NCBI RefSeq assembly: GCF_004331915.1
Contig: NZ_CP036528.1
Coordinates: forward strand, 882,567 to 946,566
Direction of reading: 5' to 3'
DNA: 64,000 bases
Source: Ureibacillus thermophilus
Lineage (GTDB): Bacteria; Bacillota; Bacilli; Bacillales_A; Planococcaceae
Of the stretch, positions 44,595-50,713 are shown piece after piece. The stretch's first letter is position 1. Each line of letters starts with the position of its first letter. Below the pieces are notes generated by a model. That model was not told the origin of the DNA. It worked only from the letters and a program-made list of their open reading frames with translations, and did not search any database. Position numbers and translations under genes: made by a program.

Positions 44595-44648
44595 ATGGAC
44601 AAAATCGCTGAAAAAGCTAATACTGATACTCCACCGAAAAACTCTTGA
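44595..44648 (+). pseudogene. Micro-ORF copy 1, shortened by frameshift
   Basis: MDKIAEKANTDTPPKNS, 17 residues, behind AGGGGGG. Compared with copy 2, the A-run after cca-ccg has one base more, which changes the frame and causes an early stop. Confidence 0.45.
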
Positions 44649-44778
44649 AAGGTACAGCAGTAGTCCACAATTGATTATGGATGAAGCACCTTTTAGAGAG
44701 TAGTTTCATGTCGGAATTTGTGAAATTCAGTAAATGAATTCACAAGGATAAACGGCATGAACACAGGGGGGATTACCG

Positions 44779-44853
44779 ATGGACAAAACCATTGAAAAAG
44801 CCGATTCAGAAACTCCACCTAAAACTCTTGAAGGTGAAAAAGCAGTCCATTGA
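44779..44853 (+). CDS. Micro-ORF copy 2, 24-residue hydrophilic peptide
   Basis: The peptide reads MDKTIEKADSETPPKTLE and then GEKAVH, 24 residues. A strong AGGGGGG ribosome binding site, the duplication and a following terminator suggest a real small gene. The peptide is charged and not membrane-like. Function unknown; a signalling or spore peptide is only a guess. Confidence 0.45.
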   Translation: MDKTIEKADSETPPKTLEGEKAVH

Positions 44854-44924
44854 TCAACCAAAATAGAAAAGCTTAGCCACCTTAGAGAGTTGATTGTTTT
44901 ATGTCGCCATTTGTGAAATCTGGG

Positions 44925-44962
44925 CCCGGATTAGTTTCCGGGTTCTATTTTTTTTTTTTGAG
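44925..44962 (+). terminator. Terminator after the micro-ORF duplication
   Basis: gcccgga...tccgggt is followed by a long T-run (about 12 T). Confidence 0.75.
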
Positions 44963-45100
44963 CGTTTTTTCTCTCAGAAAGCTTTCTCCAAAAGGAAAAA
45001 TACGACCTCAGACGGATAAGATATTATTTCTCTGGCCGGTTTTATCAATGAAGGAATCTTTTTAGAATGGGGGTATATGAAAAAGGAGAAAGCCGGAATG

Positions 45101-45640
45101 GAGAAAGTTTATTTATTGTTTACAGATACGGGCACCCTTTTTACGAGAATCATCAAACTATATACGAAAAGAGTTTACAATCATGCTTCGATTGCATTTG
45201 ATTCCGACTTTATGGAAGTATACAGTTTTGGAAGAAAATATCCGAATAATCCGTTTATCGGAGGGTTTGTAAAAGAAGATTTGCGCAATGAACTTTTTCT
45301 TAGAAGCAGAGGGGCTATTTACAGCTTTTGGGCAACCCAAGAAGAAATAGTCCGTATGAAAACCATTATTAATGCCATTGAAGCAAATCATGAAAAATAT
45401 AAATACAATTTAACCGGATTAATTACATACGTTTTTAATAAACCTTTGCATAGGAAATATGCATATTTTTGCTCTCAATTTGTAGCCCACGTATTAAAAG
45501 AAGGAGCGAATGTGGATTTACCTAAGCCTATTTCCCTCATTTCTCCATATGATTTGCAGTGTTTAAGCCATTTGCAGTTAGAATACGAAGGGCCTTTATA
45601 TTATTTATTAAGAGACCAATTGGACGAGTTCTGCCATTGA
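45101..45640 (+). CDS. Permuted papain-like (YiiX/NlpC-P60-related) protein
   Basis: About 179 residues. A histidine in KRVYNHASIAFD precedes a cysteine in YAYFCSQFVAHVLKEG, the His-before-Cys order of circularly permuted NlpC/P60 (YiiX-like) enzymes. No signal peptide, so it acts inside the cell. Substrate may be a lipid or peptide amide; not deducible. The start is ATG 45101 behind AAGGAG. An upstream ATG at 45077 is less likely. Confidence 0.7.
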   Translation, partial: EKVYLLFTDTGTLFTRIIKLYTKRVYNHASIAFDSDFMEVYSFGRKYPNNPFIGGFVKEDLRNELFLRSRGAIYSFWATQEEIVRMKTIINAIEANHEKYKYNLTGLITYVFNKPLHRKYAYFCSQFVAHVLKEGANVDLPKPISLISPYDLQCLSHLQLEYEGPLYYLLRDQLDEFCH

Positions 45641-45733
45641 AATATGAGGAAAAGAATGTGTTCGCACCTTTGCATGAAATAGAAAATCTGTAGCAAACTA
45701 AGCCTAGCAAACGAATGTTTGAGAGGTGCAGCA

Positions 45734-47002
45734 ATGGAAAACATCAATCAAATTCCAAAGGATGAAGGAATCGACCATAGTTTAACTCTGTTAAAAGAAG
45801 GTTATGAATATATTTTAAATCGAAGGAAAAATTTACAAACGGATATTTTCGAAACAAGGATTTTGGGTAGAAAAGCCATTTGTTTAGGAGGAAAAGAGGC
45901 AGCCCGATTATTTTATGATGAAACAAAATTTCAACGACAAGATGCGGTGCCAAACCGATTGATTGAAACATTGTTTGGAAAAAATAGTGTTCAGACCCTT
46001 GATGGAGAAGCCCATCAACATCGAAAGAAAATGTTTTTAAATGCCTTGACGGAAGAAAAGGTAGCTAATTTCTTAGATATTGCAAAAATTGAATGGGAAA
46101 AGGCGTTGGATAAATGGTCCAAAAAAGAGGAAATTATTTTTTATGAAGAAGTCAAAACGCTGTTGTGCAAAGCAGCTTTTAAATGGATTGGATACCCTAT
46201 TTATGAAGAAAATGCAGATGTCTTTATGAATGAATTGGGAGCGATGTTTGAATCTTCGGCTGCTATTGGAATAGAGCATTGGATGGGGAGAATTAAAAGA
46301 AATCAAATGGAGAAAAAGATGGAGCAATTAGTAGAACGAATCCGCTCCAATAAAGTTCAAGTCCACCCCGATTCCATCTTGCACCAATTCGTCTTTTATA
46401 AAGACCTCGACGGAAGGCAGTTGGATGCTGAAACGGCTGCCGTTGAAATCATTAATATAGTGCAGCCTGTAGTGGCTATTTCCATCTATATTAATTTTCT
46501 TGTCATGGCATTGGCCCATTTCCCTCATGAAAGAGTAAAATTGAAACAGCATCCGGATTATGCGCATTTCTTTATTCAAGAAGTGAGACGTTTTTATCCT
46601 TTTCTCCCATTTGTTGCGGCAAGGGCAAAAAGCAGTTTCACTTGGAATGGATACGCCATTCAAGAAGGAACATTGGTGTTATTAGACATCTATGGAACGA
46701 ATCATGATCCGAATCTATGGAATAATCCCGATGAATTTCAACCGGAACGTTTTGCCAAATGGAAAGATGATCGTTTCAGTTTGATTCCGCAGGGAGGGGG
46801 AAATGTCAAAACAACCCACCGTTGTCCAGGCGAGCAGCTAACTATTGAAATGATGAATTTAGCTTTGGCCTATTTGTTAAATAAAATGGATTATGAAGTG
46901 CCGGAACAGGATTTGTATATAACAAAGGATGACATTCCAAGCATTCCAAAAAGCAAAGTCATTTTGAGAAATGTCAAAAGACAAAAGGAAAGCATTCATT
47001 AA
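45734..47002 (+). CDS. CYP152-type cytochrome P450 (fatty acid peroxygenase family)
   Basis: 422 residues. The heme-binding loop is RFSLIPQGGG...THRCPGEQLTIE with Cys364, and NSVQTLDGEAHQHRKKMF matches the CYP152 active-site segment (Gln87 at the site of Gln85 in P450-BSbeta). In place of the Arg-Pro pair that binds the fatty-acid carboxylate, residues 244-245 are Gln-Pro (IINIVQPVVAIS). Family enzymes hydroxylate or decarboxylate fatty acids with peroxide, without a reductase. The start is ATG 45734 after GAGAGGTG. No redox partner gene is nearby, as expected. Confidence 0.9.
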   Translation: MENINQIPKDEGIDHSLTLLKEGYEYILNRRKNLQTDIFETRILGRKAICLGGKEAARLFYDETKFQRQDAVPNRLIETLFGKNSVQTLDGEAHQHRKKMFLNALTEEKVANFLDIAKIEWEKALDKWSKKEEIIFYEEVKTLLCKAAFKWIGYPIYEENADVFMNELGAMFESSAAIGIEHWMGRIKRNQMEKKMEQLVERIRSNKVQVHPDSILHQFVFYKDLDGRQLDAETAAVEIINIVQPVVAISIYINFLVMALAHFPHERVKLKQHPDYAHFFIQEVRRFYPFLPFVAARAKSSFTWNGYAIQEGTLVLLDIYGTNHDPNLWNNPDEFQPERFAKWKDDRFSLIPQGGGNVKTTHRCPGEQLTIEMMNLALAYLLNKMDYEVPEQDLYITKDDIPSIPKSKVILRNVKRQKESIH

Positions 47003-47013
47003 ATTTCAAAGGG

Positions 47014-47052
47014 GCTGCCTAGAAAATGGATATAGGCAGCCTGATGTTTTTT
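47014..47052. terminator. Terminator between P450 and nnr genes
   Basis: ggctgccta...taggcagcc is followed by tgatgttttttaa on the plus strand. Confidence 0.75.
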
Positions 47053-47110
47053 AAGGTATTAAAAAGCCCGGCATTAAATATTTCTTGAAATAATAGCCAT
47101 CCTGCAAAAT

Positions 47111-48640
47111 TTATGCTTGTCCAAAAAGCACAGGAATATAATGAATAATATCCATCGGCGTGACTCCAAAATTGGATGTTTGTTTCCCTAATTCCTCAGC
47201 GGCAATGGCATGATAATAGCTTGCACTTAATAAGGCTTTAACGGAATCTTTTTGTTGGGAAACAAAGGATGCAATCAATCCTGTCAGCACATCTCCGCTT
47301 CCACCTTTTCCAAGTGCATCATTTCCATAGGGATTAATCCATAGTTCTCCTTGAGGCGTTGCAATAATGGAGCGATGACCCTTCAACAATAAATAAACGC
47401 CATAAGCAGTTGCAAACTGTTTTGCAACATCCAAACGATTGGCTTCAATTTCCCGGACAGTTTTTCCGGTTAAAGTGGCCATTTCCCCGGGGTGGGGCGT
47501 TAAAATGATATCTCCTTCATAATGCTGCAATTCTCCTAAATGATTTTTTAGAAAATACAATCCATCAGCATCTACAATCAATGTTTGGGTTGTAAGCTTT
47601 TCGAGCAAAGTTCGAATCATTGCATCCCCATTACATTCCCTGCCTAGTCCTGGACCAAAAACAACCGTTTTGTATTTGGAAAAGTCAATGGTTTCAAGGG
47701 CTTTGCTATCAATTGACCCTTTCACATCTGAAAGTGGGAAGAAGAGACTTTCATGGCAAGTTCCAGCAGCATGCGAATAAATGGTTTCAGGTATGGCAAG
47801 GGTGACAAGACCAATCCCCGAATGAAAAGCCGCCTTAGCAGTATAGATGGGTGCCCCGATGTAATATTTGGAACCGCCAATGACTAAACAGTGGCCGAAA
47901 GTTCCTTTATGGCCGTGTTTTTCTCGTTTTGGCAGCGAAGCCTTAGCCTTTTCTCCATCTATCAATTTAGGCAGTTGAAGTTGAAGGATTTCTACAATGG
48001 ATTCGGGAACAGAAATATTTGCAACTTTCCATACCCCAATTACTTTTGGTCCATCTCCAACAAAAAATCCGATTTTTGGCATAGCAAAAGTGATGGTTTT
48101 CTTTGCTTGAATAGCTATATTTCCTATCTCCCCTGTATTGCTGTTAAGGCCAGAAGGAACATCCACGCTGATGACATCTTTATTGGACTCATTTACCGCT
48201 TCAATAATTTTGTCGAAGGGGGAACGTACACCGCCGGAAACGCCTGTCCCCAGCATGGCATCCACAATCACATCCGCTTTTTGAATATAAGCGAAAATGT
48301 CTTCTTCTCCTTCTTGATAACGGTAGAGCGGCAACTGGCGGTTTTTATACACTTGATAATGAACAAGAGCATCGCCTTTCAGCTTTTCTTCTTTTCCAAT
48401 AAAGCAAAGCTTTGTTTCATATCCTAAGTCGATTAAGCGTCTTGCAATGACGAATCCATCGCCGCCGTTATTTCCTTGCCCAGAGATCACTAACACGCGA
48501 GTATGGTGAGGATAATCATTTATGATTTCTTGAACAACAGCATTCCCTGCATTTTCCATTAATACAACGCCGGGCAATCCCAGTTGTTCCATTGTATATC
48601 GATCAAGGGTTTGCATGGATTTTTGGTCGGCAACATACAT
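47111..48640 (-). CDS. nnr: Bifunctional NAD(P)HX epimerase/dehydratase
   Basis: 509 residues. The N-terminal YjeF epimerase domain has GQGNNGGDGFVIARRL and VDAMLGTGVSG. The C-terminal ribokinase-like dehydratase has HKGTFGHCLVIGGS, DADGLYFL, LTPHPGEMATLTG and the catalytic GKGGSGDVLTG. Together they repair hydrated NADH and NADPH using ADP or ATP. It is a single-gene unit. Confidence 0.95.
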   Translation of the reverse strand: MYVADQKSMQTLDRYTMEQLGLPGVVLMENAGNAVVQEIINDYPHHTRVLVISGQGNNGGDGFVIARRLIDLGYETKLCFIGKEEKLKGDALVHYQVYKNRQLPLYRYQEGEEDIFAYIQKADVIVDAMLGTGVSGGVRSPFDKIIEAVNESNKDVISVDVPSGLNSNTGEIGNIAIQAKKTITFAMPKIGFFVGDGPKVIGVWKVANISVPESIVEILQLQLPKLIDGEKAKASLPKREKHGHKGTFGHCLVIGGSKYYIGAPIYTAKAAFHSGIGLVTLAIPETIYSHAAGTCHESLFFPLSDVKGSIDSKALETIDFSKYKTVVFGPGLGRECNGDAMIRTLLEKLTTQTLIVDADGLYFLKNHLGELQHYEGDIILTPHPGEMATLTGKTVREIEANRLDVAKQFATAYGVYLLLKGHRSIIATPQGELWINPYGNDALGKGGSGDVLTGLIASFVSQQKDSVKALLSASYYHAIAAEELGKQTSNFGVTPMDIIHYIPVLFGQA

Positions 48641-49813: not shown

Positions 49814-50210
49814 CAATTAATAGACTTCATTCTACGAAAACAAAAATACCAAAAAGACTTGGACATCTTGGGGGAACGGAACAGTTATTCCAAAACAGAT
49901 CAAGATGCGACGTTCATGCGAATGAAAGACGACTATATGAAAAACGGTCAATTGAAAGCTGGATACAATGTACAAATCGCAACAGAAGGTCAATACGCAC
50001 TAGCTTATAACAAACAATTAATAGACTTCATTCTACGAAAACAAAAATACCAAAAAGACTTGGACATCTTGGGGGAACGGAACAGTTATTCCAAAACAGA
50101 TCAAGATGCGACATTCATGCGAATGAAAGACGACTATATGAAAAACGGTCAATTGAAAGCTGGATACAATGTACAAATCGCAACAGAAGGTCAATACGCA
50201 CTAGCTTATA
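49814..50210 (+). repeat. 201-base in-frame tandem duplication in a transposase fragment
   Basis: caattaatagacttcattct recurs at 49814 and 50015, period 201 bases (67 codons). The two copies differ at about one position (gacgttcatg versus gacattcatg), so the duplication is recent. Confidence 0.9.
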
Positions 50211-50713
50211 GCATAAATGAAAAGAAATCAGCGGTCGACCGTCCATGGAAACGTAAGTTTCTAGGATTTAGCTTTACCTATCATAAAGAGCCAAAGGTTC
50301 GTATCGCAAAAGAAAGCCTTAAACGAATGAAGAATAAAGTTCGTGAAATCACATCACGCAAGATGCCCTACCCGATGGAATACCGCATTCAGAAACTGAA
50401 TCAATATCTAATGGGATGGTGTGGATATTTTGCGTTAGCAGACACCAAATCTATATTCCTTGAATTAGACAAATGGATTCGTAGAAGACTTCGAATGTGC
50501 CTATGGAAGAACTGGAAGAAACCGAAAACAAAGATACGCAACCTTATTCAACTTGGCGTACCACAATGGCAAGCGTATGAATGGGGAAATACTCGGAAGG
50601 GTTATTGGCGTATTTCAAATAGTCCAATATTACACAGAACCCTTGGTAACTCCTATTGGAGAAACCAAGGGCTGAAAAGTCTTGAAGCTCGTTATGAAAA
50701 CTTGCGTCAATGA
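49859..50713 (+). pseudogene. Chimeric frame: IS1182 transposase fragments fused to group II intron maturase C terminus
   Basis: 284 residues in one open frame. Residues 1-118 are two copies of an IS1182-family transposase segment ([20 protein letters not shown]...[10 protein letters not shown]). From about residue 123 the frame becomes the C-terminal maturase/X domain of a group II intron protein ([51 protein letters not shown]). It is a scar of two mobile elements, not a gene of known function. A weak binding site (cttgggggaacgg) lies inside the repeat, so expression is possible but not expected. Confidence 0.85.

Follow-up and report, generated by a model that had tools for sequence, protein, structure and literature searches.

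The DNA analysed here is a 64,000-nucleotide stretch (the window) of a genome from the genus Ureibacillus that is assembled in one contig of 3,017,325 bases (G000). It contains an intact gene for a CYP152-family cytochrome P450, listed with its main features in Table 1. The encoded protein matches PF00067 and scores 625.9 bits against the NCBIfam model NF053744 (CypC), above the cut-off of 600, and PDB comparisons of its sequence and of its fold both place CYP152 enzymes first. The top match in each is CYP152K6 of Bacillus methanolicus (6FYJ), with E 1.8e-167 for the sequence and, for the fold, a Foldseek E of 4e-47 at 54% identity and rmsd 1.2. An AF2 model computed from 39 sequences reaches a mean pLDDT of 92.2 and keeps the helix break at residue 244. 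This is the one intact P450 in the genome, the only other match being a remnant.

Upstream of the ATG, a TTG at 45719 lies in the same frame. A promoter scan of 44600-47300 returns five sites, all on the minus strand and none for the CYP152 gene. The inverted repeat and T run behind the gene are perhaps a terminator; they are absent from the terminator scan list, and the loop is longer than the scan permits. The upstream ORF, which is possibly linked in function to the P450, also adjoins it in the related genomes G021 and G022 and was not found in the G015 stretch; relatives of this ORF occur at L114, L115, L117, L118 and L119. Further along the window, the plus-strand ORF 49859-50713 carries a GIIM (group II intron maturase) match in its second half and a weak DDE transposase match in its first, and probably consists of fused or broken pieces of mobile elements.

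Table 1. Coordinates of the CYP152 gene, its key codons and its surroundings in the window
Feature	Coordinates	Strand	Remarks
187-residue ORF, conserved upstream neighbour	45077..45640	+	No Pfam or NCBIfam match at E 0.001
Shine-Dalgarno-like GAGAGGTG ahead of the ATG	45721..45728	+	By eye
CYP152-family cytochrome P450, intact	45734..47002	+	422 codons, ATG start
Codon 87, CAG (Gln), kept	45992..45994	+	P450-BSbeta Gln85; OleT His85
Codon 175, Ser	46256..46258	+	P450-BSbeta Phe173; Ser in 2/230 others
Codon 244, CAG (Gln)	46463..46465	+	Arg in 239/240 distinct CYP152
Codon 245, CCT (Pro), second half of the pair, kept	46466..46468	+	Direct reading, census
Codon 291, CTC (Leu)	46604..46606	+	CYP152K6 Phe292; SPalpha Phe288; BSbeta Gly290
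Codon 364, TGT (Cys), heme thiolate ligand, kept	46823..46825	+	Direct reading, alignment
Inverted repeat GGCTGCCT...AGGCAGCC, then T run	47013..47041	+	By eye
Nnr, NAD(P)H-hydrate epimerase/dehydratase, conserved downstream neighbour	47111..48640	-	Same in G021, G022 and G015

The heme-binding part of the protein agrees with the family. The P450 fold and the cysteine thiolate motif GGGxxxxxHRCxGE are present, and direct reading of both codons bears out the original prediction that Cys364 and Gln87 are intact. Across 233 CYP152 sequences, the position of BSbeta residue 85 is Gln in 185, His in 46 and missing in 2. The window protein and its four nearest relatives (clade L001-L005) share the heme loop THRCPGE; these positions are uniformly Gly361 and Ala365 in eight outgroup rows, so this clade carries G361T and A365P.

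The departure from the family lies in the I-helix (EIINIVQPVVAIS), where the Arg-Pro pair that defines CYP152 reads Gln-Pro. The original prediction placed Gln-Pro at residues 244-245 with a CAG codon, and its coordinates and residue numbers are correct; residue 243 is encoded by GTG (46460-46462). HMMER alignments set Gln244 against Arg242 of P450-BSbeta (1IZO) and against the arginine of CYP152K6 (6FYJ), which is Arg244 in the numbering of its paper, with no gap nearby in either case. An alignment of CYP152 members, proposed with the prediction as a check, leaves the window alone with Gln: among 240 distinct sequences, 238 have Arg-Pro, one has Arg-Ser (L089) and one, the window's, has Gln-Pro. 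These sequences come from the window's genus, family, class and phylum (the last two sampled at 398 genomes apiece), from a named genome collection in which a capped scan confirmed 568 places and the best 80 were taken, and from fetched stretches. They represent 292 loci, of which 280 cover residues 238-250 and yield 246 distinct translations, or 240 after removal of contained fragments; twelve loci were excluded, namely four that contain the genome's CYP152 remnant or parts of it and eight transposase loci. Identity to the window protein extends down to 31%.

Even a decayed CYP152 piece in G595, with one TAG and three TAA stops, still encodes Arg-Pro. The only other natural broken pair in the census, at L089 5001-6245 of Bacillus renqingensis, keeps the arginine and replaces Pro by Ser; this sequence also has Met80, and L061 from the same assembly has Arg-Pro. 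In an earlier count, 9 of 196 sequences, the window's included, show a single departure at otherwise fully conserved columns. Lone departures of this kind are therefore not very rare, and the window is special for which residue has changed. The literature searched, in which subscription journals are poorly covered, does not mention any natural CYP152 that lacks the arginine. No second strain of the species was found, and the 21 plasmid records that match the gene are all at 60-80% identity.

Structural and mutational work on relatives defines what this arginine does. In the closest relative of known structure, CYP152K6, Arg244 is described as hydrogen-bonding strongly to the substrate carboxylate, with Phe292 in contact with the substrate C-beta (PMC6167049), and PMC5343568 calls the arginine absolutely conserved. 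Table 1 of the latter paper lists 0% conversion of C14 (myristic acid) by OleT R245Q, the man-made equivalent of the change in the window, as well as by R245A, R245H, R245L and R245E, and 0.8% by R245K. As told in PMC5377825, BSbeta R242A has its activity abolished and R242K is substantially reduced. These mutants uphold the expectation that Arg-Pro belongs at this site and that its loss disables normal fatty-acid turnover. The loss need not be total, and weak turnover is possible, since conversion of C18 reaches 7.1% with OleT R245L and 16% with R245E, both impaired in activity and heme content (PMC5377825).

Nothing in the window protein visibly stands in for the arginine. Its residues 231-262 contain no other Arg, and with no gap near the pair in the alignment to 6FYJ and 1IZO, a nearby arginine in the same role, which the original prediction had named as the finding that would overturn it, appears to be ruled out. 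No Arg, Lys, acid or Thr/Ser occurs at or directly beside the 244-245 pair in the I-helix, and the acid-alcohol pair of ordinary O2- and redox-partner-dependent P450 monooxygenases is absent there. Laboratory variants supply an acid of their own: P246D in OleT (PMC5818669), and in P450-SPalpha R241E and A245E (3VNO, 3VOO; known from their PDB titles), where the arginine is replaced or an acid added. In contrast to these SPalpha pockets, the window pocket has no introduced acid; Asp or Glu is absent from the Pro and Ala pocket positions, as Pro245 and Ala248 are unchanged from the family. To see a new anchor in Lys398, gained at the channel mouth, would be guesswork; Lys also occurs there in 10 of 230 others.

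The suggestion in the original prediction that the enzyme may need a decoy acid fits these observations poorly. Decoy acids act through a carboxylate-Arg242 salt bridge, termed a "prerequisite" for activity in PMC12405028. Because they bind through the very arginine that is missing, and no carboxylate is provided at Pro245 or Ala248, a need for them is unlikely, and they should not rescue a Gln enzyme. The same source describes conversion of ABTS by BSbeta without a decoy acid.

Comparison with characterised enzymes shows that residue 244 is not the only altered pocket position. The window protein shares the Cys loop, Pro245 and the Gln at position 87 with CYP152K6, but has Gln244 where that enzyme has the arginine holding the carboxylate, and Leu291 where it has the phenylalanine against C-beta. 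With P450-BSbeta/CypC (CYP152A1, Bacillus subtilis) it shares the CypC model, Gln85 (window Gln87) and Pro243 (window Pro245), and differs by Arg242 to Gln, Gly290 to Leu and Phe173 to Ser. OleT (CYP152L1) belongs to the decarboxylase branch, is about 34% identical and has His85 instead of the window's Gln. None of the 232 other CYP152 sequences has Leu at position 291. Position 175 corresponds to BSbeta Phe173, which is altered in an engineered structure (8HKD, according to its PDB title).

If a rare residue is taken as one found in at most 1% of the other sequences, the window protein has 8, against a median of 7 over 233 sequences, which argues against general wear of the gene. Three of the eight (Ser175, Gln244 and Leu291) fall in an 11-position pocket list. 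No sequence among the 232 others has three rare residues in the list; one has two (L089, with Met80 and the Ser of its Arg-Ser pair), 12 have one and 219 have none. Over all sequences, 17 of 1889 rare residues lie in the list, giving a binomial P of 4e-5 for three or more of eight; this value flatters and is only a guide, since the list was compiled with the window's changes already in view, from papers, PDB titles and background knowledge, position 175 entering it because of the engineered BSbeta structure. Both accompanying positions vary within the family, with A/P/F/G at 175 and F/A/T/V/G at 291. The CYP152 of U. thermosphaericus (L003/L033) has Leu290, a position that is Phe in all 232 other sequences of the set of 233, together with Val291 and Val293, and keeps the arginine. 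These altered residues at 290-293 suggest that this stretch of the pocket is moving in the clade.

Gene order and phylogeny place the gene among its orthologues. The downstream genes Nnr and VTT are common to the window, G021, G022 (U. thermosphaericus) and G015 (U. terrenus), and these shared neighbours in three sister species identify the window CYP152 as the orthologue; a wrong orthologue or a paralogue is thus ruled out by synteny. The three syntenic orthologues are 82%, 79% and 77% identical to it, respectively, and keep the arginine, encoded by CGT, AGA and CGT. In a tree of 14 rows, the window gene, four orthologues from the genus and the remnant form a six-row clade with support 100/99, within which the window pairs with G021 at 82/82. 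All 422 codons are open, the length is equal in three sisters, and the fourth shows no net gap over 414 aligned residues. No stops, frameshifts or missing parts occur in the gene, which does not qualify as a pseudogene. Its 16 private amino-acid changes are an ordinary number beside the 11, 11, 18 and 33 of the four sisters. General decay of the gene is not supported, given the absence of stops and net indels and the ordinary counts of rare residues and private changes.

Branch tests add little to this picture. Under a home-made codon model, the window branch has an omega of 0.093, compared with 0.044 for the other branches (2dlnL 6.75; nominal p 0.009, or 0.047 after Bonferroni correction, the window branch being one of five tried), values that are rough because dS to the nearest two sequences is 1.55-1.75, near saturation. 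A four-taxon run gives 0.096 on the window branch against 0.060 elsewhere (2dlnL 2.12, p 0.15). Omega is not raised on the window branch for Nnr or VTT. Five control genes give window-branch values, against the rest, of 0.121/0.178 (40460), 0.116/0.116 (41061), 0.047/0.070 (42122), 0.125/0.089 (42834) and 0.091/0.049 (43818), with no window-branch 2dlnL over 1.1. Other branches of 40460 and 41061 reach 2dlnL values of 5.8 to 10.95, so 6.75 is unremarkable and the test is a weak guide. At about 0.09, omega still reflects strong constraint. A period free of selection, if it caused the rise, would occupy some 4-5% of the window branch. Neutral drift adding 20-40 amino-acid changes would be expected to bring 1.4-2.7 stops, and none is present.

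The genome also holds a second CYP152 copy, a frame-broken remnant at G000:C1:1584267-1584768 on the minus strand (L113 6268-6769). Its recognisable part starts at about residue 251-257 and runs to 422, which makes it unusable as a source on residue 244. Over 176 codons it shares 71.6% identity with the window gene, and over 168 codons 75.0% with L005. Some 0.1 kb away lies a DDE_Tnp_1 transposase gene (L113 6899-8068), presumably of the IS4 type, with a 98% identical copy elsewhere in the same genome. The remnant cannot supply the lost function. One of the 25 genomes of the genus (G016) has no CYP152 match; together with the broken remnant, this indicates that the function can be lost in the genus.

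Taken together, the window CYP152 has probably lost its function or acquired a different one. The replacement of Arg by Gln would have occurred on the window's own terminal branch, in what the sequence and model tests predict to be a folded heme-thiolate protein. In the CYP152 mechanism, the salt bridge positions the substrate carboxylate to serve as the general acid in converting bound H2O2 into the reactive ferryl species, and it keeps C-alpha and C-beta near the iron. As Gln is neutral and shorter, it would not hold the carboxylate, and 2-/3-hydroxylation would then be abolished or very weak. With stops, net indels and a general excess of rare residues all absent, the most likely reading is that an otherwise intact gene has recently lost its ancestral activity, and we give it an even chance. 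It draws mainly on the mutants of relatives and little on the branch test: the zero C14 conversion of OleT R245Q counts for it, and so does the census, in which even the decayed G595 piece retains Arg-Pro. The residue itself, its uniqueness in the census, the synteny, the open frame and the conserved heme site are direct observations, whereas we infer the loss of activity from mutants of relatives, and likewise its recency and the absence of a new substrate.

The main rival holds that Gln244, Leu291 and Ser175 changed jointly and that the remodelled pocket serves a different substrate or a non-classical role under selection. Its substrates might be neutral (a fatty alcohol, aldehyde or amide) or acids anchored at another site, and its roles could include peroxide use or ligand binding. 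Rare residues gathered in the pocket rather than scattered are more in keeping with such remodelling than with one chance substitution; the trio is unmatched among the other 232 sequences, and the near-median total of rare residues, the omega of about 0.09 and the status of the gene as the sole intact P450 found in the genome all agree with continued use. On the other hand, the pocket list was written post hoc and partly from background knowledge, so its P value flatters, and positions 175 and 291, being variable in the family, may reflect ordinary tuning while the arginine was still present. Gln occurs in no other natural sequence of the census, and no acid for peroxide activation is visible. 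We consider this account unlikely on balance, and it is somewhat less likely still that the window holds the first natural CYP152 whose anchor was replaced in a joint pocket change with heme site and fold under selection.

After this comes a weak residual or differently anchored peroxygenase, in which Gln would hydrogen-bond the acid and allow slow oxidation of long-chain acids. The C18 turnover by OleT R245L and R245E (PMC5377825) and the decoy-free ABTS turnover by BSbeta (PMC12405028) speak for it, but R245Q, R245L and R245E do nothing with C14 (PMC5343568), and R245L and R245E lose both activity and heme content (PMC5377825); we regard it as improbable. An assembly error, with the true codon 244 encoding Arg, ranks last and is slightly more improbable again. 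A single genome represents the species, and misreading one base, with CGG taken for CAG, would suffice. However, the codon is CGT in the nearest sister and AGA, CGT and AGA in the three that follow, so a prior change to CGG would be needed. CGG is used for none of the 22 Arg codons of the gene, against 52 of 463 across 33 ORFs of the window, and the remainder of the gene reads cleanly.

The gene is a CYP152 by descent, as clade support of 100/99, an NF053744 score over the cut-off and synteny all indicate. Since the defining Arg-Pro pair is Gln-Pro here, we do not file the protein as a functional CYP152 fatty-acid peroxygenase. Its natural Gln244 lends itself to testing whether CYP152 enzymes truly need carboxylate anchoring. 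If the protein is dead, it provides a clean case of recent active-site loss. If it works, it would show how nature arrives at peroxygenases for other substrates, a goal that biocatalysis has pursued by engineering. A joint change of the pocket, if true, would mean that a peroxygenase scaffold has been re-used for a carboxylate-free substrate or for peroxide chemistry unaided by a carboxylate.
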